Source: a virus. From it: DNA of 30,998 bases. Shown one piece after another: positions 196-24,505 of the stretch. The stretch lies in IMG/VR virus record IMGVR_UViG_3300007540_000055, positions 1-30,998 of that record; one strand, written 5' to 3'. Made by a program: the position numbers and the translations under genes. The notes under the pieces are model-generated. The model was given only the letters and a program-made list of their open reading frames with translations, ran no database searches and was not told the DNA's origin. The first letter of the stretch is position 1. Every line of letters starts with the position of its first letter.

Positions 196-333
196 ATGGC
201 AATACCAAGTAAACAAGTTGGATGGAATGAAACTAATAAACTTCTTTGGAACATTTCTAAGCAATTAGAGAGACTTATTCAGGTTTCAGGTAAGTGTTGT
301 GTAACTACAACAACAACAACTGCTACACCGTAA
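196..333 (+). CDS. small protein with Cys-Cys/poly-Thr C-terminal tail
   Basis: A 45-residue protein starting MAIPSKQVGW at an ATG preceded by an A-rich leader (AATACAAAACAAA). Residues 6-31 (QVGWNETNKLLWNISKQLER...) look like an amphipathic helix able to form a coiled coil. The C-terminus is CCVTTTTTTATP: a Cys pair followed by six Thr in a row, encoded by ACA/ACT repeats. The same CC-then-Thr arrangement ends the protein at 1339-1554, and the two genes flank a glycosyltransferase. Short proteins with this QVGW.....LLW.ISKQLERL pattern and Thr tails are, from memory, seen in phages of Bacteroidetes, probably as virion or tail-associated parts; the role is not established. Function is unknown; the Thr tail could be an O-glycosylation target (inference). 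Confidence 0.75.
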   Translation: MAIPSKQVGWNETNKLLWNISKQLERLIQVSGKCCVTTTTTTATP

Positions 334-362
334 TTAATTAAAAAACCAATAACTACATATTT

Positions 363-1301
363 ATGATCAGTATTTGTTCACAACCAGATGATCCATATTT
401 TCACTGGCAAAATTTAGTACAGTTCTATAATCTAGAAAAGCTAGGCTTATTAGAAAACCACCGTGCAGTATTTTTATATAGAGATGGTGAAAAGCCATCA
501 GAATTTATAAATAAATTTAAAGAGGCACATCCTGAAAATGTATTTATATTTAAAGATACTAGACTACAGAAACATTACATCCCTACATTAAAAATACATG
601 GAGTTGTCAAGTACTTAGAACAAGATACTAAAGATCAAGACTTGTTTTTAATAGATTCAGATGTTATATTTAGGGAAGCTGTTGACTTTAGCTTGTTTAC
701 AAAAGATAATGTAGTTTACTGTAGTGATACTAAAGGATATTTAGGTTATCAATATCTAAAGACTAAAGGTGATGAGATAATAAAATCTATGTGTGCTTAC
801 ATTGGTGTTTCATTTGACACTATAGTAGAAAAGAATGATGAATCAGGAGGCGCCCAGTTATATTATAAAGGTATACCTCACAACATTCTAATTGACTACT
901 TCAAAGAAGTTGAAATACAGTCACCTAGATTATATGACATTATGAGAACTCATATAACATATAATGATTACGAACCTACAATACAAGCATGGACCTCAGA
1001 GATGTGGTGCGTATTGTGGATACTTTGGAAAAGAAATATTGAAACTGAAATTGTTAAAGAATTAGATTTCAGATGGGCTACAGATCCTATAGAGATGTGG
1101 CAAACTAATAAAATCTTACACATGGCTGGAGTAACATCAGACAGTAAAGATAAATTCTATAAAGGGAATTTTATAAATAGTAACCCTTTTAATCATAACT
1201 ATGATTATGTAGATGATAAATCTATAACAAAAATTTATATAGAAGAATTAATAAATACCAAAAACTCAGAGAAATTTAAGAAATTAGTTTCTCAATTTTA
1301 A
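363..1301 (+). CDS. putative glycosyltransferase (GT-A-like, DSD motif)
   Basis: A 312-residue protein. The segment YLEQDTKDQDLFLIDSDVIF (residues about 84-103) carries the hydrophobic strand plus Asp-Ser-Asp typical of the metal- and nucleotide-sugar-binding DxD motif in GT-A-fold glycosyltransferases. A GGAQ motif after an acidic stretch and HMAG near residue 257 resemble acceptor-side motifs of phage and bacterial glycosyltransferases. There is no signal peptide or membrane segment, so it should act in the cytoplasm. It sits between two genes whose products end in threonine runs, unlike the other three glycosyltransferases, which lie on the opposite strand at 3583-5534. Plausible acceptors are virion proteins or host surface polysaccharide precursors; the sequence does not tell which. 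The start is a clear ATG preceded by AATAACTACATATTT. Confidence 0.7.
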   Translation: MISICSQPDDPYFHWQNLVQFYNLEKLGLLENHRAVFLYRDGEKPSEFINKFKEAHPENVFIFKDTRLQKHYIPTLKIHGVVKYLEQDTKDQDLFLIDSDVIFREAVDFSLFTKDNVVYCSDTKGYLGYQYLKTKGDEIIKSMCAYIGVSFDTIVEKNDESGGAQLYYKGIPHNILIDYFKEVEIQSPRLYDIMRTHITYNDYEPTIQAWTSEMWCVLWILWKRNIETEIVKELDFRWATDPIEMWQTNKILHMAGVTSDSKDKFYKGNFINSNPFNHNYDYVDDKSITKIYIEELINTKNSEKFKKLVSQF

Positions 1302-1338
1302 CCTAACCCCTAATTACTAACCCTTTAAACTTAAACAA

Positions 1339-1554
1339 ATGGGAAGCAAAGCATCTTCAAATAGACGTGAATTAAAAGCTTTTGTTAGATTCGATGGATC
1401 TGGCAGAGTAGTAGCAGGTTCTCTTGTATTACGCAGGAAGAAACCTAAGGTAGGAAACTGGAAAGAAATTACAGCATACGAATGTTGTAATCCAACAACT
1501 ACAACAACAACCACTATAAGTGGAACAACAACTACAACAACAACTAGTAACTAA
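1339..1554 (+). CDS. small basic protein with Cys-Cys/double poly-Thr tail
   Basis: A 71-residue protein beginning MGSKASSNRRELKAFVRFDG. The first 50 residues are basic and predicted to be beta-rich (VRFDGSGRVVAGSLVLRRKK). It ends ECCNPTTTTTTT, then ISG, then a second run of seven Thr before SN. The tail is coded by in-frame ACA/ACT/ACC trinucleotides (1493-1548), so slippage or recombination would change tail length without a frameshift. The Cys-Cys-then-Thr signature matches the 45-residue protein at 196-333. Similar short proteins occur in environmental Bacteroidetes phages as far as I recall; none has a known function. An opposite-strand ORF covering 1317-1514 is a low-complexity shadow. 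Confidence 0.75.
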   Translation: MGSKASSNRRELKAFVRFDGSGRVVAGSLVLRRKKPKVGNWKEITAYECCNPTTTTTTTISGTTTTTTTSN

Positions 1555-1577: not shown

Positions 1578-1611
1578 CTCAGGGACTTATGTCCCTGGGT
1601 TTATATATTAA
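1578..1611 (+). terminator. hairpin with GC-rich stem, probable terminator
   Basis: CTCAGGGAC (1578-1586) pairs with GTCCCTGGG (1591-1599) across a TTAT tetraloop: nine pairs including one G-T wobble, followed by TTTATATATTA. The downstream tract is T/A-rich rather than pure T, so termination may be partial. It separates the Thr-tail gene from the next gene at 1623. Confidence 0.55.
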
Positions 1612-2233: not shown

Positions 2234-2449
2234 ATGGCTGTAAGAAAAAAATCTAAAGTAAGAGGGAGAAAAAAAGTAACTGCTGGTAAAACAGTGGCAA
2301 AGAAGAGAGTGCTTAAAGCTAAAAAAGGTAGTAAATCTTCAAAACCTAATCACGATGCTTGTTATCATAAGATAAAAAGACAGTATAAGGTATTTCCCTC
2401 TGCTTATGCCAGTGGTGCTATTGCAAAATGTAGAAAACGTAGAGGTTGA
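2234..2449 (+). CDS. Lys/Arg-rich basic protein with PSAYASGAIAKCRK motif
   Basis: A 71-residue protein, highly basic. The first 35 residues are Lys/Arg/Gly/Ser repeats that look disordered and DNA-binding. Residues about 40-71 hold a conserved-looking module: CYHKIKRQYKVFPSAYASG followed by AIAKCRKRRG. This 'C(Y)xK(I/V)KxxYxVxPSAYASGA(I/L)xKCR' pattern is known from many marine and algal virus or phage proteins of unknown function, often at the edge of structural modules. The two Cys could bind metal or form a disulphide. It is the first of four consecutive basic genes (2234-3572), plausibly virion proteins that neutralise or condense packaged DNA (inference). Confidence 0.75.
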   Translation: MAVRKKSKVRGRKKVTAGKTVAKKRVLKAKKGSKSSKPNHDACYHKIKRQYKVFPSAYASGAIAKCRKRRG

Positions 2450-2454
2450 AAGAA

Positions 2455-2538
2455 ATGAAAAATCTAATATGTAAAATAATATATTATATCACCTTTAAAA
2501 AAATATGTTTAGGTTGGTGTGATATTAATGAGAAATGA
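2455..2538 (+). CDS. possible 27-aa microprotein
   Basis: A short ORF of 27 residues, MKNLICKIIYYITFKKIC then LGWCDINEK, beginning 5 bases after the stop of the basic-protein gene. It has three Cys and an amphipathic basic-hydrophobic N-terminal half. Its TGA overlaps the ATG of the next small ORF in the ATGA arrangement used throughout this genome, which is the main reason to list it. No family is recognised. Chance occurrence is quite possible at this length. Confidence 0.35.
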   Translation: MKNLICKIIYYITFKKICLGWCDINEK

Positions 2539-2615
2539 AAAAGGTAGTATTCTTTATTATTCAAATGTTTTTAATAACAGCAGTGTCTCTATGGGTTTCT
2601 GCAATAATAACATAG
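2535..2615 (+). CDS. possible 26-aa single-pass membrane microprotein
   Basis: ORF of 26 residues starting MKKVVFFIIQMFLITAVSLW and ending VSAIIT. After two Lys the chain is continuously hydrophobic, so it should form one transmembrane helix with the N-terminus inside, or a signal-like peptide. The start overlaps the preceding short ORF (ATGA) and the TAG at 2613-2615 is directly followed by the ATG of the next gene (2616), so there is no free sequence between them. The tight coupling supports translation. Role unknown; a holin-like or membrane-effector role cannot be judged from this length. Confidence 0.45.
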   Translation: MKKVVFFIIQMFLITAVSLWVSAIIT

Positions 2616-2888
2616 ATGGCAGTTAGGAAAACAAAGAAAGGCGCTGCTCTTAAACGTTGGTTTAAAGAGAAATGGAAAGATGAAAAGGGTAATCCCTGTG
2701 GATCTTCTAAGAATAAAGGCGTGAAGAAATGTAGACCTAGTAAAAAAGTTAGTAAGAAAACACCTGTAACATGGAAAGGTGTTGGTAAACGTAAAGCTGC
2801 TGTTGTAGCTGAAAAGAAAAAAGTGGGCATGGGTAGGAGGACTAGTGCGCTTAGAAAGCGTAAGAAGTCTACTAAAAAGAAAAAGTAA
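2616..2888 (+). CDS. Lys-rich basic protein with WFKEKW motif
   Basis: A 90-residue, strongly basic protein. Near the N-terminus, LKRWFKEKWKDEKGNPCGSS (residues 12-31) and then KNKGVKKCRPSKKVSKKTP form a small module with two conserved Cys; 'WFKEKW.D...G.PCG......KGV.KCRPS..V..KTP' is familiar from small proteins of phages and algal viruses, function unknown. The remainder is Lys/Arg-rich and ends in KRKKSTKKKK. The start ATG abuts the stop of the preceding microprotein. An antisense 122-residue ORF covers this gene but is a mirror of the Lys-rich codons. Likely DNA- or RNA-binding, possibly a virion protein. Confidence 0.78.
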   Translation: MAVRKTKKGAALKRWFKEKWKDEKGNPCGSSKNKGVKKCRPSKKVSKKTPVTWKGVGKRKAAVVAEKKKVGMGRRTSALRKRKKSTKKKK

Positions 2889-2891
2889 CCT

Positions 2892-3191
2892 ATGGCTAAA
2901 AGAAAAGAAAAAGCTATCAGAAAAACCACTAAGGGTAAAGGTGCTAACTACAGACCTACCAAGAAGGGTGCTGGTATGACTAAGAAAGGTGTAAAAGCCT
3001 ATAGAAAGAAAAATCCTGGCAGTAAACTAAAGACTGCTGTAACAGGTAAAGTAAAAAAGGGATCTAAAGCTGCAAAGAGACGTAAGTCTTATTGCGCTAG
3101 GAGTTTGGGACAGTTAAAACGTAGTTCTGCTAAGACTAAGAATAATCCTAATTCTAGAATCAGGCAGGCTAGAAGAAGATGGAAATGTTAA
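2892..3191 (+). CDS. Lys-rich basic protein (GAGMTKKGV/CARSLG module)
   Basis: A 99-residue, very basic protein. Visible modules in order: NYRPTKKGAGMTKKGVKAYR (residues 19-38), NPGSKLKTAVTGKVKKGSKA (41-60), then RRKSYCARSLGQLKRSSAK with a single Cys, and a C-terminus RIRQARRRWKC. The order GxGxT.KG...Y...NPGSKLKTAVTGK.KKGSKAAKRRKSFCAR...RRW.C is, from memory, a recurring small phage and algal-virus domain (DUF6321-like) of unknown function. It follows its neighbour by three bases. Shared composition with the genes on both sides suggests a family of DNA-binding virion or injected proteins. Confidence 0.78.
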   Translation: MAKRKEKAIRKTTKGKGANYRPTKKGAGMTKKGVKAYRKKNPGSKLKTAVTGKVKKGSKAAKRRKSYCARSLGQLKRSSAKTKNNPNSRIRQARRRWKC

Positions 3192-3209
3192 TCCTCAAAC
3201 TATACAATT

Positions 3210-3572
3210 ATGATGCGTAAATACAAAGCAGGCGGAGCTAAAAAGAAAAAAGCTATGTCTGGAACTAAAATGAAAAAGGCCAAATCAGGAATGAAGATGG
3301 CTAAGGCTGGAACAAAAGCTAAGAAGATGACCTATGGTGGCAAAGCTGCTTCTATGGTTCCTCCTAAAGGTAAAATGAAAAAAGCTAAGGCTGGATTAAA
3401 GAAACCTAAGCCTTCACAGAAAGGACTTAAAGCATTACCTACAGCTGTACGTAATAAAATGGGCTTTGCTAAGAAAGGTAAAACAGTAAAGAAAGCTGGA
3501 TATGGTAAGACTATGAAAGCTAAGTCTGGATCCAAGATGAAAAAGAAGAAGTGTAAATACGGATGTAAATAA
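3210..3572 (+). CDS. Lys/Gly-rich repetitive basic protein, 120 aa
   Basis: A 120-residue protein built of irregular repeats of the type (M/A)KKAKSG and KAGxKxKKMxYGG, resembling the low-complexity KAGG/KKGG proteins found near virion genes of Bacteroidetes phages. A more ordered segment GLKALPTAVRNKMGFAKKGK (residues about 72-91) interrupts the repeats. The C-terminus KMKKKKCKYGCK has two Cys. Two Met codons open the frame (3210 and 3213) and either could initiate. It is the last plus-strand gene, ending two bases before the bidirectional terminator stem. Role probably structural or DNA-condensing, by composition only. Confidence 0.72.
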   Translation: MMRKYKAGGAKKKKAMSGTKMKKAKSGMKMAKAGTKAKKMTYGGKAASMVPPKGKMKKAKAGLKKPKPSQKGLKALPTAVRNKMGFAKKGKTVKKAGYGKTMKAKSGSKMKKKKCKYGCK

Positions 3573-3573
3573 T

Positions 3574-3600
3574 AAAAGCCCCTTAATTGGGGCTTTTTTT
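3574..3600. terminator. bidirectional rho-independent terminator
   Basis: AAAAGCCCC (3574-3582), loop TTAATT, GGGGCTTTT (3589-3597) followed by more T. The stem is 9 bp and symmetrical: on the plus strand it ends in a T7 tract, and on the minus strand in TTTTATT. It lies exactly where the two gene blocks converge. The loop and right arm are also the last codons and stop (TAA at 3585-3583) of the minus-strand glycosyltransferase gene. Confidence 0.88.
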
Positions 3601-4233
3601 TATTCTATTTCTCCAAGTAGATATAGTGTTAGCATGATCTAAATAGTACTGCCACTCTTCAGGTATACAGCAATCGTCTATATACCAAGGTGCATGTTTT
3701 ATACAATAAGGTCTATCTAATCTTATTGCATCATATGAGAATGGCATATCAGTTCTATATAATGCAAACGTAGTGTCTACATAAGCGTCCCATCCTAAAT
3801 CAATTTTATTCTCCCAGTATTTAGCCTCATTTGCATATGATTGTTTACCTTGATCTGTATTGGGTAGATCTTCTATCTCTAGTGAAAATCCTATTTTAGG
3901 AGAACCTGGTTGGTTTATAGCGTGTAACATTACATCTAACCAGTCATCAGGAACATTATCATATATACAATCTGTATCTGCTACAATAAAGTAATTTTTA
4001 CGTAAGTGATTATATCTATGATGCCATGCTGAATATGGACCTTCGTTCTCTGAGTAGTGAACTTTTTCAGAAATTGTTTTGTAGAATTCTAACAGGGGAG
4101 GATAAGTAGATTTTTGATCCAGTATGTGAATCTCTACTCTGGATTCTTTTCTTAAGAACTCTAACGTATTCTTAAAAGTGGTTAAGAGGTTTCTATTAAT
4201 TAATAGAGCTTTTACTTTACTAGTTGTGTACAA
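3583..4233 (-). CDS. putative glycosyltransferase, GT-A-like (DTD motif), TTG start
   Basis: A 216-residue protein. Beta-strand VKALLINRNLL at the N-terminus, then KNYFIVADTDCIYDNVPDDW with the Asp-Thr-Asp metal-binding motif (residues about 78-97) points to a GT-A glycosyltransferase domain. Near the end, HAPWYIDDCCIPEEWQYYLD may be the acceptor-side helix. No ATG is available before the first strand; the frame opens at a TTG at 4233, overlapping the upstream gene by 14 bp, which I take as the start. The last codons lie inside the terminator hairpin. Three glycosyltransferase genes in a row (3583-5534) suggest stepwise assembly of a glycan, on virion protein, DNA base or surface polysaccharide; the sequence does not say which. 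Confidence 0.68.
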   Translation of the reverse strand: MYTTSKVKALLINRNLLTTFKNTLEFLRKESRVEIHILDQKSTYPPLLEFYKTISEKVHYSENEGPYSAWHHRYNHLRKNYFIVADTDCIYDNVPDDWLDVMLHAINQPGSPKIGFSLEIEDLPNTDQGKQSYANEAKYWENKIDLGWDAYVDTTFALYRTDMPFSYDAIRLDRPYCIKHAPWYIDDCCIPEEWQYYLDHANTISTWRNRIKKSPN

Positions 4234-4792
4234 ATAAAACTTTATTTATTTTAAACATTTCTTCTTCTGCAAACTTCTTTTTAAACTGTTCTACAAACCG
4301 ACCATCAGCATCATATCTTACTCCAAGATCTATTTTCTGAGCTAGGTCTTTTCTAGTAGAAAAGGCGCCCATGTCTATTTGATTACTAAATGGACTACAT
4401 TTAAAGTATGCATAATCATAATGAGAATGTACCATGTCCCAATAAATAAAACCAGGAGAGTTAGCTGTTGCTGTTCGCAGTTCAGAAACAAAGTTTGGTG
4501 TGTAGTAGTTATCATCTCCAGTCATTACTATATATTGAGCATCTGACATTTGTTTACCACGCTCTCTTAACGTATGTCCCCAGTCATTATACCGCTTATC
4601 CATGAAGGTACAGTATATTCTAGGATCATTAAAACTTTTTACTATATCAGATATTCTTTCACTTTCTGTATCATCTATAATTACATGACCGCTCCAGTCA
4701 GTATCTGTTTGAGCTGTAAGAGAAGCTAGCATACAGATTAAAGGCTCATGCCTATTGTATGTAGGAATAATAAACTCAACTAGAGCTGACAT
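4220..4792 (-). CDS. family 2-like glycosyltransferase
   Basis: A 190-residue protein. The N-terminus VEFIIPTYNRHEPLICMLAS is the first strand and loop of a family 2 glycosyltransferase (pattern V..IIPTYNR...L..aL.Sl..Q), followed by a VIIDD strand (residues about 36-40) and the metal-site segment AQYIVMTGDDNYYTPNFVSE with GDD at the DxD position (residues about 86-105). The domain is complete for the nucleotide-sugar half but short for a full enzyme (usual GT2 about 250-300 residues). ATG at 4792 overlaps the previous gene by 17 bp. Forms one transcription unit with the flanking glycosyltransferases. Confidence 0.8.
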   Translation of the reverse strand: MSALVEFIIPTYNRHEPLICMLASLTAQTDTDWSGHVIIDDTESERISDIVKSFNDPRIYCTFMDKRYNDWGHTLRERGKQMSDAQYIVMTGDDNYYTPNFVSELRTATANSPGFIYWDMVHSHYDYAYFKCSPFSNQIDMGAFSTRKDLAQKIDLGVRYDADGRFVEQFKKKFAEEEMFKINKVLFVHN

Positions 4793-5534
4793 AATCTTTT
4801 AGCATTTGTTTATAATCTTTATTCCACTTAGGACGTAAATATACGTCACCTGTAGGTATATTACCTTTTCTCCTCTCGCTTTCTATGTGTTCTGAGTGCC
4901 TTTCTATAATATTAGGTCTAGTTCCATCGTCTGTACCTTGTCCAGATTGGTGATATCCTCTACCGCCCCACATGTAAAACCAAGAAACTTCACTATCTGG
5001 CATCTTAACATCTACTTTACCACCTATAGCGTGAATTTTATTAGTTAGTGTCATGTCTCCACCAGCATTCTCTAGAGGACTTTTACCTATTCTTTCCCAC
5101 ACATCTTTACTATACACTATTCCTGAGTTACCCACTCCAGTTATAGCTGTAATCTCAGGTTCATTATAATATACACCTGTTTCCCAATGAATAATATTAG
5201 TATCTTCTTTCCAGTGATTTGCTATATTTTTTAAATGATTTGATAGTGCTATATCATCATCATCCCATACAGCAATAAGTTCCCCTTTACATCGTTCAAT
5301 AGCATAGTTCTCTTTCTCTCCTATCAAAGGAAAAGTTTTATCTAAGTTATAGATAGTAACCTGAGGGTGATCATATATAAGTTTTTGATTAGGGTAATCA
5401 TTTACAATAACTAATTCACACCTATCTTTAGGATAATCCTGAATTAAAAAACTATGTAAAGCTTCTACTAATGTGTCAACTCGACCATACGTAATACACT
5501 TACAAGATATAAAAGGGAGGTTATTATTTTCCAT
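4776..5534 (-). CDS. family 2 glycosyltransferase
   Basis: A 252-residue protein starting MENNNLPFISCKCITYGRVD. Strand 1 (FISCKCITYGR), a second strand ELVIVNDYPN and the metal-site motif ELIAVWDDDDIALSNHL (Asp-Asp-Asp-Asp at residues about 96-99) are classic GT2 features. Downstream, ENAGGDMTLTNKIHAIGGKV fits the acceptor-site ED/GGD region and SWFYMWGGRGYHQSG is aromatic, as in acceptor-binding loops. The ATG at 5534 shares its A with the TAA of the GroES-like gene (TAATG); a TTG two codons further upstream would also keep the frame but ATG is preferred. Length is normal for GT2. Confidence 0.85.
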   Translation of the reverse strand: MENNNLPFISCKCITYGRVDTLVEALHSFLIQDYPKDRCELVIVNDYPNQKLIYDHPQVTIYNLDKTFPLIGEKENYAIERCKGELIAVWDDDDIALSNHLKNIANHWKEDTNIIHWETGVYYNEPEITAITGVGNSGIVYSKDVWERIGKSPLENAGGDMTLTNKIHAIGGKVDVKMPDSEVSWFYMWGGRGYHQSGQGTDDGTRPNIIERHSEHIESERRKGNIPTGDVYLRPKWNKDYKQMLKDYVSSS

Positions 5535-5830
5535 TACCAAACATGTAATATATCAAATGGGGATACTAGTAGTACATCTTTGTCATCAGATAAAGGGATA
5601 ACCATTGCATCTTTTAACTTGCCTGGATCTACTAGTACTGTATCTCCCACTTTTACATTCTTTACTATATCTCCAACATCATAAACTTTAAGTTTAGACA
5701 TCTTCTTTAGCATTTCTCTTTGTAGAGCTTCTTTAGTATTCTCGTCAACTATAATTTTACTCTCATCTTTTTTAGGAACATTCACATATATTCTGTTTCC
5801 TAGTAATTCTTTGTAAGGTTTTTTTGCCAT
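5534..5830 (-). CDS. GroES-like co-chaperonin
   Basis: A 98-residue protein with the GroES layout: N-terminal strand PYKELLGNRIYVNVPKK, a mobile-loop region at residues 21-40 with IIV at 26-28 where E. coli GroES has IVL at 25-27, then VYDVGDIVKNVKVGDTVLVD (conserved V..VGDxV region) and a C-terminus DVLLVSPFDILHVW comparable to GroES EVLIMSESDILAIVE. GroES caps the GroEL chamber during folding; T4 gp31 and other phage homologues replace host GroES for capsid protein folding. No GroEL gene is in the window, so it would work with host GroEL. ATG at 5830 is preferred over an in-frame TTG at 5839: the previous gene stops at 5832. Confidence 0.75.
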   Translation of the reverse strand: MAKKPYKELLGNRIYVNVPKKDESKIIVDENTKEALQREMLKKMSKLKVYDVGDIVKNVKVGDTVLVDPGKLKDAMVIPLSDDKDVLLVSPFDILHVW

Positions 5831-15622: not shown

Positions 15623-17920
15623 CTACTCATCTTCTTCTTTTACTTTATCTTTTAGAAATACATAACTTGCATTATAACCAACTCCATTACATCTAAATAA
15701 CTGAGCCATACAATCTATTAATTCATTGTTATTAGTTCCTCCATATGCAATAGCTCTTGATAATGTAGCTACATAAATATTATCTTCGATAAATTTATCC
15801 ATATCATCAACCATATCTTTCATCTTATCATTAAACAGTTTCTGTTCTTTAGCATTGTCTAGAAAATGTTTAGTTTTATCAAAATAGTTATATCTACAGC
15901 TGCCAATATTCTTGTCTCTATAAAGTTCAATTTCTATAAGCTTATCAGTAAGCTTAGATTTAATTAAATTTATCTTTGTTTTAGCTCTATATATATACTC
16001 CCATTTCTTTACATTAATATTACAATACATTGCAGTTACAAATCTAATAAATAGACTATGTCCTGCTATGAAATCTTCATATTTAACCAAATTATCCACG
16101 CTAGGAGACTTTTCTAAAGATTCCATTTCACGATTTGAAAATGTAATATATTTAATTGGTAAGAACTTAGTATCATGATACAAATCATCTAACTTCATAT
16201 ATTCATCGTGAGAAGTATAGACAAAGGTATCTCCACCTTTTTCTACAGTGTCAATATTTATACGACCTGAAACAAACTTACAGTTTCTACCACCATTTTC
16301 TCTAAGTAAGTCTTCAGCAACTTTACAGTTAAAATCTCCTTCAACTTTTACACCTTTAGAGTCCATTGTACTCTTTCTCTTAGATGAAGTCTGAGCTTTT
16401 TTATCCAGCAACCATTGTTCAGGAATCTCAATTGTATTTATACCTACCATATGTTTAAACAATAATGATTGAATATATTGAAACTCCTTAATTATAGTTC
16501 TCCACATACTCTTATCATAAAGATTTAGATTTAGAATTGTATAGTAACAATCTCTTGTTGCATGACCATTTTTCATAAGTGAATATGGCTTTGTTTTACG
16601 TACAAAGTAAGTTCTTCTAATCTTCTGGCCTTTATTATCTACTCTTTCACCACAAATTTCTCTAAGATAACTTTTCTTATGTCCTTTCATAGCAGTTTCT
16701 ATAAGATATGGATACTTTTCCAGACTGTCCCATTTTACATTACTGTGCCAACTGTTATCATCTACCTTATACATTCTATCATTTTCATATCTATAAGCAA
16801 CACGATATTCTCCTGTAAAATATCCATATTCATGATTAGCAAACTTAGTAATATCAAAATTATCTACTCCTTCAAGTTTTGGCTTAGCAAAAGGTATTGT
16901 AATAAAAGAATTTAGACTATTTAGATCAAATTTAGTCCCAAGTACATTCCAGATTCTTGTCTTATTATAGTAATAATCTAAATAAGATACTACATCTTCA
17001 CTATTTTCTGAAACACCTTCATTATATTTCTCTACACAATAATTAGCAAATTCAGTTAACTTAGACTTTATAGTTTTCTTAGTTTCTTTAGTGTATATAA
17101 GAGACTCTCTGTTAGGTGTTGGGAATATACCATCAGTAAGACTAAATCTTAGTCCAATAGGAATATATATAGACTCCATTCCCATTTTATCAAAATCAAG
17201 AGGATAGTATACATTATCAAGACATATATGTAGTTTTTTATCCTCAGATAATTCGGAAAACTGAAACAACTTAGATCTATGAATAGTGAATTCATTATCA
17301 ATATCATCTACATTAAAATATACATCCTCGAAGTATGCAAGTTGCTGTTTAATTTTATTACGAAAGTCATACTTATCACCCCATCTAACTGGTACAGTAA
17401 CTTTTACACCATTGCACTCTGTTGTAGGAGTTTCATTAATTAAATCAATAGTGTTTGTTTCCTCACCTTCATACATCATGTACTTACGTTCCATACCATC
17501 TTTTCTACATGTAAAATAGAAACTACTAGCATAAGCTAGAGGAGCCTTGAAACCAAGACCCATCATACCAAGTTCTGTATTACTATTACGTTTGGTAGAT
17601 TTACCATACTTACTGATAATGTTCTGTACATCATGATGATCTAAACCTGTACCAAAATCCTCAACAGAGAACTCCCAGTTATTAGATTTATTCTGCACCA
17701 ACGATACAATTATAGGTTTATTAACTCCAGCACGCCTATGACTATCAAGTGCATTACTAGCACATTCTCTCACTGCAGATCCTACAGCATCTGAATAAAG
17801 ATTCTTACTTAACATCTGCATCAACACTTGTGCAGAATCCATGTCTAATGACATTCCTATACTCTCGTTTTTATCTCCTGAGTATAGAACATTTGCTTGT
17901 TTTTGTTTTTCTAATCGCAT
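15623..17920 (-). CDS. rIIA: rIIA-like GHKL ATPase
   Basis: A 765-residue protein with an N-terminal GHKL ATPase domain: SAVRECASNALDSHRRAG (N box, N56 region), SVEDFGTGLD (D88-x-G-x-G), and GMMGLGFKAPLAY (G box, residues 118-130). This is the arrangement of T4 rIIA, which is a membrane-associated GHKL protein that works with rIIB. The C-terminal 500 residues are Lys/Tyr/Asn-rich without recognised motifs and the end is strongly acidic (KDKVKEEDE). Length is close to T4 rIIA (725). It has the leader box TTAATAAATAAATAAATAG immediately before the ATG and is the last gene of a unit starting at the primase. Confidence 0.85.
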   Translation of the reverse strand: MRLEKQKQANVLYSGDKNESIGMSLDMDSAQVLMQMLSKNLYSDAVGSAVRECASNALDSHRRAGVNKPIIVSLVQNKSNNWEFSVEDFGTGLDHHDVQNIISKYGKSTKRNSNTELGMMGLGFKAPLAYASSFYFTCRKDGMERKYMMYEGEETNTIDLINETPTTECNGVKVTVPVRWGDKYDFRNKIKQQLAYFEDVYFNVDDIDNEFTIHRSKLFQFSELSEDKKLHICLDNVYYPLDFDKMGMESIYIPIGLRFSLTDGIFPTPNRESLIYTKETKKTIKSKLTEFANYCVEKYNEGVSENSEDVVSYLDYYYNKTRIWNVLGTKFDLNSLNSFITIPFAKPKLEGVDNFDITKFANHEYGYFTGEYRVAYRYENDRMYKVDDNSWHSNVKWDSLEKYPYLIETAMKGHKKSYLREICGERVDNKGQKIRRTYFVRKTKPYSLMKNGHATRDCYYTILNLNLYDKSMWRTIIKEFQYIQSLLFKHMVGINTIEIPEQWLLDKKAQTSSKRKSTMDSKGVKVEGDFNCKVAEDLLRENGGRNCKFVSGRINIDTVEKGGDTFVYTSHDEYMKLDDLYHDTKFLPIKYITFSNREMESLEKSPSVDNLVKYEDFIAGHSLFIRFVTAMYCNINVKKWEYIYRAKTKINLIKSKLTDKLIEIELYRDKNIGSCRYNYFDKTKHFLDNAKEQKLFNDKMKDMVDDMDKFIEDNIYVATLSRAIAYGGTNNNELIDCMAQLFRCNGVGYNASYVFLKDKVKEEDE

Positions 17921-19559: not shown

Positions 19560-19781
19560 TTAATTTATACAGACAACATTACCATCCTCTGCAGTGTTAA
19601 CTTCTTCTACTTTAATATCTCGATTCTCTAAAGAATCTACTTTCATTACTGTAGGTGTAAAGACTACTCTTCCAAAAGAGTTTCCTTCATCATCTATACC
19701 GTATACACATTCATAATCTGCAACTACAGGATTGTTCTTAACAAGTAGTTGCAACGTCTCTAAGTATTTTGAAAGCTTCAT
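19560..19781 (-). CDS. hypothetical protein, 73 aa
   Basis: A 73-residue acidic protein starting MKLSKYLETLQLLVKNNPVV: a short helix followed by three beta-like strands (VYGIDDEGNSFGRVVFTPTV and IKVEEVNTAEDGNVVCIN). I associate this helix plus 'ADYECVYGIDDEGNSF' pattern with small phage proteins without function. It is placed between the DUF932-like gene and the UDG homologue with gaps of 2 and 8 bases. Confidence 0.7.
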   Translation of the reverse strand: MKLSKYLETLQLLVKNNPVVADYECVYGIDDEGNSFGRVVFTPTVMKVDSLENRDIKVEEVNTAEDGNVVCIN

Positions 19782-19783
19782 GA

Positions 19784-20551
19784 TTAAAACATTAATAATT
19801 GATTATCACTCACTTCAGCATCAATTATAATAGGACTAGCAGAAGGCTTATCATAATTGTTAAAGAAATCATGCACATTTATATGATCTTGCATCCAAGT
19901 TGATGGATGAGCTTGCTTCATTGCAAATGTAACATGATTGTAAAGTTCCCACATACTATCTGCAGCTCCATAATCATGAGTTGGACTTTTGATCTCCCTC
20001 TTAATTATATTTAGCTGTGTAGATGTAATTATATCTTCTTTGAGAAACATTCTACCTAATAACTCTGCTTGCGCTTGACCATCTACTTCTATATTTTTGA
20101 ACTGATCACGTTCATTCTGTAAATTACGAAAAGCATCACCTCCACCTTTTATGTATTCTGATACAGCTGCTGGGGTAAAGCTTTGTATGTCTCCCTGGTG
20201 CTTCTTTCTAAATGCACCGTGATCACCTTTCACCATACCATTAGAACAAATAATAATACTAGTTCCAAGAGCAAATTTAAGTGATAGACTTTTGTCATAG
20301 CTGTTCTGCCATCCAATTTGTAATTTCATCTCACTGTCTGCAACATTACCTATAGTGTAGCGTCCATTTGCTACATTACCATCTCTTGCAGTAGAGTATT
20401 CTTGACTCACTAAGCTATAACCTGACTGGTGTATGCTCTCAAGTGTTAAGTCTATAAGTTGTTTGTGACTTACAGGCTTGTACGTTTTTGTTTCCTTCGG
20501 TACTGGAGCGATTAACATTTTGTCCAGATTTTCAATTGTTGATTTCATCAT
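19784..20551 (-). CDS. DUF932-like protein with C-terminal clamp-like motif
   Basis: A 255-residue protein. The central part, FALGTSIIICSNGMVKGDHG followed by AFRKKHQGDIQSF, with the earlier YSLVSQEYSTARDGNVANGR, resembles DUF932 proteins (SNGm..gd...~R~kHt), which occur in phages and plasmids and are conserved in crAss-like phages near replication genes. Function unknown. The last residues DNQLLMF fit a bacterial sliding-clamp-binding peptide (QxxMF, as in QADMF of DNA polymerase III alpha). Two in-frame ATGs; the stop of the primase overlaps the first (TGATG type). Leader: TTAATAAATAAACAAATTTTAAA. Confidence 0.72.
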   Translation of the reverse strand: MMKSTIENLDKMLIAPVPKETKTYKPVSHKQLIDLTLESIHQSGYSLVSQEYSTARDGNVANGRYTIGNVADSEMKLQIGWQNSYDKSLSLKFALGTSIIICSNGMVKGDHGAFRKKHQGDIQSFTPAAVSEYIKGGGDAFRNLQNERDQFKNIEVDGQAQAELLGRMFLKEDIITSTQLNIIKREIKSPTHDYGAADSMWELYNHVTFAMKQAHPSTWMQDHINVHDFFNNYDKPSASPIIIDAEVSDNQLLMF

Positions 20552-21561
20552 TTTAAAATTTGTTTATTTATTAAATATTCTTCTATTACTTTAAGGCCAT
20601 GAACCTTAGCTAGGTCTGCCCAATCATTTATACCATCTTTCAGATACTTCTTAGGTACATTACAATACTCAAAACCAAACTTGTTAGTTATGCTAGTACT
20701 GTTCTTTACACCCACTTCATCTGAATCAAAAGATAGTATCTGTTTCTCAGAGTTTGATTTAATATACTCTATATTCTCATCAGAGAAACATCCTGCACCT
20801 TCGTTCTGTACAGCACATACAGTTGGAAATATCTTTTTCATCACCATATAGTCTTTCTTGCTTTTAGTTATAAAAGCTGTATGGCAATCTTTAATATCAT
20901 CCAAACCATCCATTGCTGTAATTGGTACATTGTTAGGCATCCACTTCCATCTTCTATCAGATAGAGGTCTATAGATTTTCCATTTACCATCATACAGATA
21001 ACCAAACCTTAGCTCATTATTCCCTAGAACAATACGCTTCTTGTTTAGATATACTTCTGCCACTGAAAATATATTATTTGCTTTCAGATCATCAATGTCC
21101 TGATAATAATTATTCCAATATGCAAGTTCTTCTGTGGTAAACTTTCTGGTCTTAACTTGTATAAAAGAATAATCTTTCTTTACTATTTCAGGCTTATTAT
21201 ATTTTCTAATAATCTTCTCGTACTTCTTTGTAGTTGTACCTGTAGTGAATCCTAAGTCAAAATCTCTATCAATTTTACTATACACCTCAAACATGTTTTT
21301 CATATTATACAGTTTCTCTATAAACTTAAAGGCATCACCTTTTAAGCTAGTATCAGCAAAATCAATAAATATTAACACTCCTCCTTCACCTTTGGGACCA
21401 ATAACAAACGATGGATGTTTCTCATCTCTAAATGGAGAGAGAGTTACTACATCTATTTCCCAATTTTTATTTGGCATGTAAAACCTAAAGATGTCATACG
21501 AAGATATTTTAGAAAGAATAAGCTCTTTAGTAAGAAATACTTTTTTTATTCCTTTAATCAT
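20548..21561 (-). CDS. DnaG-type primase without zinc-binding Cys
   Basis: A 337-residue protein. The N-terminal part VVTLSPFRDEKHPSFVIGPK (residues about 39-58) matches the CHC2-type primase pattern '.sPFr.ekhPSF.v', and FADTSLKGDAFKFIEKLYN matches the following helix, but no Cys is available for a zinc ribbon. A Toprim-like part follows: ITKSKKDYMVMKKIFPTVCA and later KQILSFDSDEVGVKNS with the DxD pair. It would make RNA primers for lagging-strand synthesis, with the DnaB-like helicase at 24502. The terminator at 21571-21603 leaves little room for a promoter, so expression may depend on readthrough. Confidence 0.82.
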   Translation of the reverse strand: MIKGIKKVFLTKELILSKISSYDIFRFYMPNKNWEIDVVTLSPFRDEKHPSFVIGPKGEGGVLIFIDFADTSLKGDAFKFIEKLYNMKNMFEVYSKIDRDFDLGFTTGTTTKKYEKIIRKYNKPEIVKKDYSFIQVKTRKFTTEELAYWNNYYQDIDDLKANNIFSVAEVYLNKKRIVLGNNELRFGYLYDGKWKIYRPLSDRRWKWMPNNVPITAMDGLDDIKDCHTAFITKSKKDYMVMKKIFPTVCAVQNEGAGCFSDENIEYIKSNSEKQILSFDSDEVGVKNSTSITNKFGFEYCNVPKKYLKDGINDWADLAKVHGLKVIEEYLINKQILK

Positions 21562-21570
21562 TCTTCTTAA

Positions 21571-21603
21571 AATTAAAAAGCCCTCAACATTTCTGAAGAG
21601 GGC
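21571..21603 (-). terminator. terminator after SSB-like gene
   Basis: On the minus strand GCCCTC (21598-21603 region read as complement) pairs with GAGGGC (21585-21580) over a 12-nt loop, followed by TTTTTAATTTT. Six GC-rich pairs. It lies 24 bases after the SSB-like stop and ends 10 bases before the primase ATG, so it can separate the two units or act as an attenuator. Confidence 0.78.
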
Positions 21604-21626
21604 CCTAGTTTATATATATTTATTAG

Positions 21627-22508
21627 TTAGTAGTCTGACCCATCATCTGATATATAATTATCAGAGGCGACAAGATTATCACCAGGGTTATACTCTTCTA
21701 TTTCTTTAAGAATATAGTAGTCTTTACATCCATATTCACCACTTACACGAACTGCAAAACGTTCATGTGGTTTAAGGTCACGAGGTTTTCTAGATCTCAA
21801 ACTATCTAGTATTCTCTTATCTGTATAGTCTACTAGTCTGAATTGCTTCATAGTATAACCACTCAAGAACCCTTTGTTATAGATACCCTGATACTCTTTA
21901 GTCTCACCATCACGCTCCTTAACAACAACAGTTGCTAGTGCTACAACAGTGTTACACCATTCACCATTAATTTCACTTTTAAGATCACCAATATTACCAC
22001 GCATAAGTTTCTTCCAGTCTAACTGTAGAACTGTAGTTGCATGACGATAGTTCAATTGACCTAACCATGTTCTCATGAAATCATATAATTCTTCTTCACC
22101 AATATAGGCTACACGATGATCACGTCCTTCAGTGAACCAGTCCCACAAATCATTCTCATCAGCAGCCCAAGCTGTCATACCTACACTGTTGATATATTGT
22201 TTCTTTGTTTGGTCTCTGTTCTCACGCTCTCTATCTTCTAGAAAGAAACTACTTTTAAATAGATTCTCAGTTTTAACTTGTTTCAACCAAACATCTACAC
22301 GCAGGTATGAATTACCATCTCTGGTTTCTCCTAAATAGTCTGTAGCTTTACTTTCTGGTTTTAAATCCATTCCAAGCACTGTACTATACTCCTCTATTGT
22401 GGGATTAATAGCTACAATGTCTGCCTCAAATATACCAACCTTTTTAGGAAAGTTAGTGTTTTCTCCACCTCCTGCGGATTCTCTTTTTACTCCTCCAATT
22501 GTACTCAT
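21627..22508 (-). CDS. putative single-stranded DNA-binding protein
   Basis: A 293-residue protein. The N-terminus MSTIGGVKRESAGGGENTNF followed by PKKVGIFEADIVAINPT, an aromatic-rich core (GMTAWAADENDLWDWFTEGR) and a strongly acidic C-terminal tail (ASDNYISDDGSDY) fit the single-stranded DNA-binding proteins of large Bacteroidetes phages; the acidic tail is a shared feature of SSB, T7 gp2.5 and T4 gp32, where it binds partner proteins. I rely on this tail, the size, and its position directly after a Sak4-like ATPase, a common SSB neighbour. No OB-fold motif can be proved by eye. Leader box TTAATAAATAAATAACAATT lies upstream. Confidence 0.62.
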   Translation of the reverse strand: MSTIGGVKRESAGGGENTNFPKKVGIFEADIVAINPTIEEYSTVLGMDLKPESKATDYLGETRDGNSYLRVDVWLKQVKTENLFKSSFFLEDRERENRDQTKKQYINSVGMTAWAADENDLWDWFTEGRDHRVAYIGEEELYDFMRTWLGQLNYRHATTVLQLDWKKLMRGNIGDLKSEINGEWCNTVVALATVVVKERDGETKEYQGIYNKGFLSGYTMKQFRLVDYTDKRILDSLRSRKPRDLKPHERFAVRVSGEYGCKDYYILKEIEEYNPGDNLVASDNYISDDGSDY

Positions 22509-22537
22509 AAATTTTAATTTTAATTGTTATTTATTTA

Positions 22538-23206
22538 TTAATTATAATACTCTACTATACTATCTCTTACCATCTGTAAGTTGTTTGGTATCCTTGTTGA
22601 TTCAAACATACCATCTGGACTCTTTGCAGGCTTCTTACGAAATCTATTTGTTAGGAATTCGTACGTAGCTCCACTCTTAGTTTCCTCTACATGTGTGTAT
22701 AAACATACAGTTAGTAAACCTTCTAACAACACTTGATTGTCAATAAGTTTACCTGCTGTCTTAATTTTGTATCCTATAATCTCTCCGCTGTCTTCTATAG
22801 TTTCAGGGTGAGAGAAATAAAAGATAACTAAATCATCACGTAGTGCTCTAGCTGATCTAAATAAATCAACCATATCCTTAGCCATTACACTAAACTTTGT
22901 AAAGCCAGTTTCCATTGCTTTCTCTACCATTCTGAAGCCCATTAGATAATTACTGTCCTCTATGACAATAGTTTTAATGTGTGGGGCTTTCTCCGAGATA
23001 GTTTTAAGCAATCTTGTAATGTCCGTTGGATCATCAATCTCTTTGTAATTTTTGTTTTCTGTGTTGTAAAGTTTCTGAGAACCTTTGAAGGGTAGCTCTT
23101 TCTTTGCAACGTTAATAATGTAGGTTTCTTCAGGGTTTAAGTGCTTCACTGCTGTTGATTTACCTGTCCCTGTTTCACCAACAATTCCAATTAATTTTGA
23201 ACTCAT
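22538..23206 (-). CDS. Sak4-like RecA-fold P-loop ATPase
   Basis: A 222-residue protein starting MSSKLIGIVGETGTGKSTAV: Walker A GETGTGKST (residues 10-18), Walker B KTIVIEDSNYL, and LVIFYFSHPETIEDSG. This small RecA-core layout with a final LTNRFRKKPAKSPDGMF resembles the Sak4 group of phage recombinases and AAA_24-type ATPases, which anneal or load on single-stranded DNA with phage SSB. The true start is the ATG at 23206, not an upstream in-frame one: it has the leader TTAATAAATAAATACATAAAA and a -7-type motif, whereas the longer frame runs into the helicase gene. SSB-like partner follows directly. Confidence 0.78.
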   Translation of the reverse strand: MSSKLIGIVGETGTGKSTAVKHLNPEETYIINVAKKELPFKGSQKLYNTENKNYKEIDDPTDITRLLKTISEKAPHIKTIVIEDSNYLMGFRMVEKAMETGFTKFSVMAKDMVDLFRSARALRDDLVIFYFSHPETIEDSGEIIGYKIKTAGKLIDNQVLLEGLLTVCLYTHVEETKSGATYEFLTNRFRKKPAKSPDGMFESTRIPNNLQMVRDSIVEYYN

Positions 23207-23239
23207 TTTTATGTATTTATTTATTAATATTAGGTGTGC

Positions 23240-23251
23240 AAATATACGAAA
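23240..23251 (-). promoter_or_regulatory. TTTCGTATATTT promoter-like motif before Sak4-like gene
   Basis: TTTCGTATATTT, extended by G at 23239, contains a full TATATTTG (23246-23239) -7 match. It lies 33 bases before the Sak4-like ATG and just after the helicase stop (23253). No TTTG is found 19-21 nt upstream. The sequence is almost identical to those before recA and rIIB, pointing to a shared promoter class. Confidence 0.5.
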
Positions 23252-23252
23252 T

Positions 23253-24338
23253 TTATACGTATTTAATCTTACTTTTGTCAAAGAACTCAAGAGCTTTATT
23301 AAGCCATTTCTCTTCAACCTTTTCATTAGAAGATATAATATATATCTGTGCTTTCTTGTCTGGAGTATCATATTCCATAGCCATACATCTATTAATCTTC
23401 TGTGCTAGGTTCTCACCATTACTATCAAAGTAATTAATGATCACCTTGTTTAGTGGTTTATATGTAACTCCTGTGTTACCTATCTTTACAACAGCCATGT
23501 GTGTACCTTTTCCTTCTGCGAAGTTTTTAAGTGCATCTTTGTCCTTAGACTTGCTGTGATAAGAGGGTATACCAAGACTATCAGCTATTGCTGTTACACC
23601 ACAAAACACTAGTATTCTCTGATCCTTATTGTTATTAAGAATCTGTTTAGTCTTTTGCTTCTTAGCTAAGCTGCTTTGTATAAGTCTCATACGTGCTAGA
23701 CGCATAAACATACTATTGCCACCAGAGTACATCATCTTGTTTATAACACCACTAAGGTATTTAAACTGTTGAAGCTCTGTCTTCTTGATCTTCTTCTTAC
23801 CATACTCATTGCGAGTAGTGTTGTCTAAAGGCACCTTGATTACATTTATCTGGTAGTCAGCTATAACACCTTCATCAATAGCTTTGTTTATTGGGTAGTT
23901 AGCAATCACTGATATACCAAGCTCTTCTTTAAGTGTTCTCTTAGTCCACTTAGATAATGTACCTGTTAGACCAAGTATGTTATCATTCTGAGAGAATAAA
24001 TCTACACAAACACCTATCTGGGCCTCTGATAGTAAATGTATCTCATCAATAATAACAATGTCAAACTCTGTACCTGACTGCTTGTGTAAAGATCTGTGTG
24101 TAGTATAAGTTATGTTATCATTCACATAACTCATCTCTTCAAACTCTTCTATCCAAGACTGTTTGATTTTATTGTCAGGATATGCAATCAATATATTACA
24201 ATTGCTTTCCATTCTATTAAGAATACTAATCGTTGTTCTAATCTTACCAAATCTAGGACATAAGTTTAGAATACCAAACTTTCCATGATTTAGCCATACG
24301 TCAGCAAACTCTTTTTGTCTCTTGTCTCTTAGTGTCAT
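23253..24338 (-). CDS. superfamily 2 helicase (DEIH)
   Basis: A 361-residue helicase core. Motif I is NLCPRFGKIRTTIS (Gly31-Lys32, with Ile where Thr or Ser usually follows the Lys), motif II FDIVIIDEIHLL, motif III LGLTGTLSKWT, and motif VI QKINRCMAMEYDTP with Arg. This matches the small SF2 helicases found in phages, including crAss-like ones, which may unwind replication or recombination intermediates. No additional domains are attached. ATGA overlap with the small upstream gene. The C-terminal end abuts the Sak4-like promoter. Confidence 0.82.
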   Translation of the reverse strand: MTLRDKRQKEFADVWLNHGKFGILNLCPRFGKIRTTISILNRMESNCNILIAYPDNKIKQSWIEEFEEMSYVNDNITYTTHRSLHKQSGTEFDIVIIDEIHLLSEAQIGVCVDLFSQNDNILGLTGTLSKWTKRTLKEELGISVIANYPINKAIDEGVIADYQINVIKVPLDNTTRNEYGKKKIKKTELQQFKYLSGVINKMMYSGGNSMFMRLARMRLIQSSLAKKQKTKQILNNNKDQRILVFCGVTAIADSLGIPSYHSKSKDKDALKNFAEGKGTHMAVVKIGNTGVTYKPLNKVIINYFDSNGENLAQKINRCMAMEYDTPDKKAQIYIISSNEKVEEKWLNKALEFFDKSKIKYV

Positions 24339-24505
24339 ATAACTCTCCTTTTGTTTACAAATCTTCTAATTGTCTCTGTACACACGTAATACTTATTATG
24401 TAAGGTAGTTAGTTCTTCTTGAGAACAATCGTTCTTTTTTGCTGTGTCTAGCATTATTCTAATTTCAGCAAGTCTCTCTTCTAATAATTGCAATGGTTCT
24501 GTCAT
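24335..24505 (-). CDS. hypothetical protein, 56 aa, coiled-coil-like
   Basis: A 56-residue ORF beginning MTEPLQLLEERLAEIRIMLD; residues 1-50 are helical with heptad-like Leu/Ile spacing and two Cys (C27, C42). It is joined by ATGA overlaps to the DnaB-like stop upstream and the SF2 helicase start downstream, so it fills the gap fully. No family known. Its size and place between two helicases would suit an adapter, but that is inference only. Confidence 0.7.
   Translation of the reverse strand: MTEPLQLLEERLAEIRIMLDTAKKNDCSQEELTTLHNKYYVCTETIRRFVNKRRVI

Follow-up and report, generated by a model that had tools for sequence, protein, structure and literature searches.

Phage glycosyltransferases of the phrog_4417 family as probable O-glycosylating enzymes for poly-threonine tags on virion proteins

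Why would a phage place a glycosyltransferase gene between two small genes whose products end in runs of threonine? The question is raised by the start of the stretch of DNA analysed here (the window), which is an entire virus record of 30,998 bases. An earlier note had described two Thr-tailed proteins flanking a DSD-motif glycosyltransferase, and the open reading frames bear this out. On the plus strand, a 45-aa protein (196-333), conserved in relatives, ends in ...KCCV-TTTTTT-ATP, with its Thr tract at 304-321, and a 71-aa protein (1339-1554) ends in ...ECCNP-TTTTTTT-ISG-TTTTTTT-SN, with tracts at 1495-1515 and 1525-1545. Between them lies the gene (363-1301) for a 312-aa protein that carries D98-S99-D100 and is predicted to adopt a GT-A fold, and a terminator-like hairpin (1578-1599, plus strand, a consensus match only) marks the end of the three-gene unit. 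We presume from sequence and structural model that the middle product is a poly-Thr O-glycosyltransferase, and that the two small proteins are its acceptors. The Cys pair preceding the Thr runs, which the note had made part of a common signature, is present in both window proteins but is not general: the Thr tails of Bacillota relatives lack it, and NN replaces that of the 45-aa protein in the window relatives L019-L021 and L025. Neither small protein had a described homologue by tblastn at E 1; weak Pfam matches of the 71-aa protein to HCV_capsid and DUF3439 fell under the cut-off and were rejected.

The enzyme is a full-length member of phrog_4417 (E 4.6e-68, residues 1-299 on profile positions 1-291 of 293), an entry without assigned function that some records label 'prophage pi2 protein 34'. 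It matched no family in Pfam or NCBIfam and no sequence in the PDB. An AlphaFold2 model built from 28 sequences reached a pLDDT of 95.3 and a pTM of 0.91, and Foldseek aligned it with the GT-A enzymes WbbM, UGGT and glycogenin (E 1e-8 to 1e-6). The window enzyme has the overall fold and the acidic metal-binding-type motif in common with these GT8- and GT24-type proteins; unlike them it has no sequence-family match, and the resemblance stands at 10-13% identity and a TM of about 0.5. Residues invariant across 68 relatives include D98, D100, G163, Q165, Q208, W210, E213 and M214. Model, Foldseek result and conservation of the DSD together point to a GT-A fold with a DXD motif, and on this modelled structure the protein very probably works as a GT-A glycosyltransferase, its family being as yet unnamed. 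Its N-terminal motif resembles, we presume, the hydroxyproline O-arabinosyltransferase family (PF23452); membership of that family was rejected, as one of the 68 members matched at a non-significant E of 0.035 and the window enzyme did not match.

The explanation that we favour, and consider likely, is that phrog_4417-type enzymes O-glycosylate poly-Thr tags on virion proteins. The product of 363-1301 would be a cytoplasmic enzyme whose acceptors are runs of about six to seven Thr on phage proteins in the same infected cell, which in the window phage would be its two small neighbours. It would add the first sugar to Thr hydroxyls, so that the tract would serve as a portable glycosylation tag. 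Tags would sit on the MCP and/or MTP of Bacillota phages and on head-gene-adjacent and fibre-like proteins of crAss-like relatives; that the two small window proteins belong to the virion is likewise presumed. We infer the glycan, its sugar and linkage and its benefit, which might be a hydrophilic coat, surface adhesion or masking, and ECCNPTTTTTTTISG is a candidate synthetic acceptor peptide for the window enzyme. With moderate confidence we extend this to a broader proposal, in which phrog_4417 comprises dedicated poly-Thr O-glycosyltransferases, six to seven Thr form a transferable tag, which capsid, tail and fibre proteins of Bacillota and crAss-like phages have repeatedly acquired or shed in step with the enzyme, and crAss-like phages vary the glycan further by exchanging cassettes of enzymes that extend it.

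By tblastn, 74 described phages encode a phrog_4417-type enzyme; their hosts are mostly lactobacilli, enterococci, staphylococci and lactococci. Where inspected, the enzyme gene mostly lies next to a major structural gene. It directly follows the major tail protein gene in phiFL1A and 1706, and likewise in SA2 with one ORF between; it directly follows the major capsid protein gene in Planchet and CHPC836 and, judged by position, in R3.3. Poly-Thr ends are found on such neighbouring proteins, for example on phiFL1A gp50 (TTTTTSTTTTTTSSTTTTTTTQASSK) and 1706 orf13 (TTTTTTTTTTHHD), CHPC836 carries such a tail on capsid and tail proteins both, and in Planchet the Thr-rich end of the tail protein is less pronounced. 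Among the immediate neighbours of the enzyme in Chryseobacterium phage MA9V-3, no Thr tail is present. With a wider search, viral contigs yielded 522 relatives and bacterial genomes, almost all from Bacillota, another 39. Of these 39 bacterial-genome loci, 37 encode one or more T5+ proteins, and T5+ runs there fall in the gene directly upstream of the enzyme in 32 of 38 cases, compared with 5 of 137 genes more than six away. T5+ runs in environmental viral loci are likewise concentrated in the genes nearest the enzyme, mainly downstream; some of these loci have none next to it, and crAss-like phages have many Thr-tract genes distant from it.

Such neighbourhoods could also arise if the Thr tracts were unmodified flexible linkers or tails, with the enzyme acting elsewhere, on the host surface or DNA, and the two co-travelling as cassette neighbours. 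Neighbouring genes are often transferred jointly in phages, and one protein looks linker-like: the homologue of the 71-aa protein in L019-L021 and L025 has 142 aa, agreeing with it up to the CCN-Thr tract but carrying a C-terminal domain where the second Thr run would be, so that the tract lies between two domains. Adjacency alone is insufficient, however, for phages whose MCP and MTP genes are distinct and lie several kb from each other, with a tail on both products, and homologous tail proteins from loci without the enzyme repeatedly lack tails. This was evaluated in a paired test, for which two major-tail-protein families (A3 and A4) were queried by their ordered part only, tails excluded, and each locus was scored for a Thr tail on the protein and an enzyme nearby. 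In A3, 15 loci had both, none had the tail only, one had the enzyme only and 21 had neither (Fisher p 1.7e-9); the corresponding counts for A4 were 13, 0, 0 and 34 (p 7e-12). These raw values overstate independence because the sequences are related, and independent changes are the fairer count: on the trees both traits changed four times in A3 and eight times in A4, and supported independent pairs were concordant in 3/3 and 4/4 cases, that is 7/7 (sign test p 0.016). Among loci of at least 9 kb, 28 of the 29 enzyme-bearing ones had any T5+ gene, as did 1 of the 58 that lack the enzyme. Given these data, we judge that unmodified linkers are an unlikely explanation. The sole enzyme-positive, tail-negative locus (L184, A3) has a tail-protein frame that is cut short and an enzyme split over two frames.

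The association was also approached from the tail, by scanning for CC-x-T6, sorting plausible from chance frames by eye among the matches listed, and then searching whole contigs. Among the matches listed, contigs of 50 kb or more that encode a plausible CC-x-T6 protein number 12, and the enzyme was present in 11 of them, or in 8 of 9 when L273, L299 and L324, where it was already known, are set aside. It was found in none of the 17 listed chance-frame contigs, only one of which is at least 50 kb long, and in none of the 21 shorter plausible contigs among the matches listed, which are mostly small fragments and limit the reverse test. A comparison of a T5-xx-stop DNA pattern with the enzyme in 300 genomes was too noisy, as the pattern was mostly chance DNA and the enzyme occurred in four genomes only. 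Lack of association between Thr-tail genes and glycosyltransferases had been set beforehand as one of the results that would refute the idea; the concordant pairs and the large contigs among the matches listed instead give a near-perfect association in both directions. Many environmental phage proteins among the matches listed have in common a stretch like IxxINNQLxxCCPTTTTTTT, at loci that include L260, L270, L283, L289, L300, L311, L313, L315, L331 and L333.

A second alternative is that the enzyme modifies host surface polysaccharide, for superinfection exclusion or receptor change, and that Thr-tailed virion proteins bind the product. Phage glycosyltransferases that alter host surface polysaccharide are well known. 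Such roles are also covered in PMC12619734. Set against this are the position of the enzyme gene, which Bacillota phages have among their head and tail genes, within that block, and the character of the tails, which are low-complexity sequences rather than binding domains, and we regard this second alternative as improbable, even more so than unmodified linkers. In Bacillota phage loci L095-L257, what follows the final Thr run is often the same on the MCP and MTP of a single phage (SHA, SA, GV, AAV, SGAGA or QA). Such identity holds in 19 of 36 cases, where shuffling expects 2.95; related phages inflate the figure. Possibly the enzyme recognises the end of the tail; alternatively, the tails may have arisen as copies of each other.

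O-glycosylation of a protein tag also accords with the make-up of the tracts. Near the enzyme, 302 distinct runs of at least four Thr were counted, 96 of length six, 56 of length five and 52 of length seven. The T6 DNA pattern has five matches in the window, every one within the three tracts of the 45-aa and 71-aa proteins, whose Thr codons are mixed. Tract length changes in-frame among relatives, the tail of the 45-aa protein reading (VTTTTTTATP)x2 in G001 and VTTTTTQTPIITETTTTATP in G002. Although such in-frame differences would be expected if the runs were functionless products of DNA repeat slippage, that reading was rejected, as very improbable, on codon mixture and strand bias: a single codon makes up only 10 of the 302 runs, 100 dinucleotide shuffles of the window gave no T6 match, and the pattern occurs 41 and 46 times in full-length relatives, on a single strand only, against 5 and 3 times when reversed. 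The length peak together with the codon mixture accords more with selection acting on a protein tag than with slippage.

If the window enzyme adds the first sugar, extension and variation of the glycan would probably fall to other enzymes, namely those at 3583-5540 and a 987-aa multi-domain enzyme upstream in a longer relative. The existence of three further glycosyltransferases, also claimed from the sequence beforehand, is confirmed by Pfam Glycos_transf_2 (PF00535) matches to all three minus-strand products. These are a 216-aa GT2-type enzyme (3583-4233; E 4e-5), a possible glycan extender that G001 and G002 lack or have replaced; a 190-aa GT2-type enzyme (4220-4792; E 1.4e-8), replaced in both; and a 254-aa GT2-type enzyme (4776-5540; E 4.1e-10), kept in G001, L020 and L021 and replaced in G002. 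A hairpin readable on both strands (3574-3597, a consensus match only) divides the plus-strand genes from this minus-strand cassette. Relatives of the window phage are 92-99% identical over aligned stretches, yet diverge at 3583-5540. The cassette of G001 encodes a TOD1/MUCI70-like protein and a GT2, those of L020 and L021 encode the same kinds, and that of G002 encodes a GT2-like protein and a GT11 enzyme (fucosyltransferase-like); corresponding swapped cassettes lie at 9088-10481 in L002 and 9324-10780 in L003. The trio at 196-1554 is retained in all relatives compared (G001, G002, L020, L021). Cassette swapping suggests fast change of the glycan, and the simplest reading would be that the initiating enzyme is constant and the extenders are exchangeable. 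A glycan-extending role for the 3583-5540 enzymes fits, circumstantially, with swapping around a conserved core.

As summarised in PMC12619734 and PMC12363180, mycobacteriophages glycosylate the C-termini of capsid and tail-tube proteins with their own enzymes, with Che8, Corndog and Myrna as examples (Freeman et al. 2023, cited there). As in those phages, the glycosyltransferases here are phage-encoded and several per phage (Che8 gp108-110), and the putative poly-Thr acceptors in Bacillota relatives would be capsid and tail protein C-termini, Thr tails co-occurring on MCP and MTP; in the window the neighbours are two small proteins. In contrast, the window enzyme is not homologous to gp108, gp109 or gp110 (hmmsearch E at least 0.3; hhalign probability <1%), and the Che8 MCP and MTP have no Thr runs. 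The window enzyme thus stands outside the Che8 enzyme family, although it could act in a similar way. In the literature searched, where subscription papers and preprints are thinly covered and a prior description is possible, we found no link between phrog_4417 and poly-Thr tails, and no relevant account of glycosyltransferases in connection with poly-threonine or threonine-rich tails of phages. If true, the proposal would assign a role to a phage family that is widespread, make glycosylated virions predictable from sequence in crAss-like phages and in dairy and enterococcal prophages, supply a testable reason why proteins of environmental phages contain so many Thr runs, and provide, for glycoprotein production, a bacterial cytoplasmic enzyme whose peptide tag is simple. 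The Thr tag could also matter for phage persistence, because virion glycans influence antibody recognition in mycobacteriophages (PMC12363180).

The lineage of the window phage can be read from its longer relatives. G003, a near-identical 55-kb relative, shows the genes upstream of the trio, including two giant proteins, one of them RNA-polymerase-like with a DFDID motif; the piece surrounding this motif matches crAss-like, Flavobacterium and Cellulophaga phages. In G361, a relative of 112 kb, the portal matches crAss001 gp20 (7qog; E 3e-34), a terminase and a major head protein are also present, and proteins encoded after the head-protein gene end in TTTTTAAA, TTTTTTTSPII and TTTTTTNQN. Neither the DFDID piece nor the G361 major head protein matched the PDB. 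The portal and the DFDID giant protein that characterise crAss-like phages (Crassvirales) are thus found in G361 and G003, and the window does not include those genes. Judged by these relatives' sequences, the window phage is of a crAss-like lineage in which head-adjacent genes carry the Thr tag. G003 also encodes a 1599-aa protein (L005, L006; rc 19561-24360) that is Thr/Ser-rich and consists mostly of GTSG-type repeats. Its gene lies upstream of, and adjoins, those for a 142-aa T7 protein and the 987-aa protein, which has GT4 and GT9 domains. An amidase is encoded among the lysis-type genes of the same relative. In the window, the region 2234-3572 encodes, one after another, four small proteins with a very high Lys and Arg content; some match unnamed PHROGs, and they could be DNA-condensing virion proteins. 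Further along, the product of 15623-17920 (765 aa) resembles rIIA lysis inhibitors, with a match to phrog_612 at E 1e-58.
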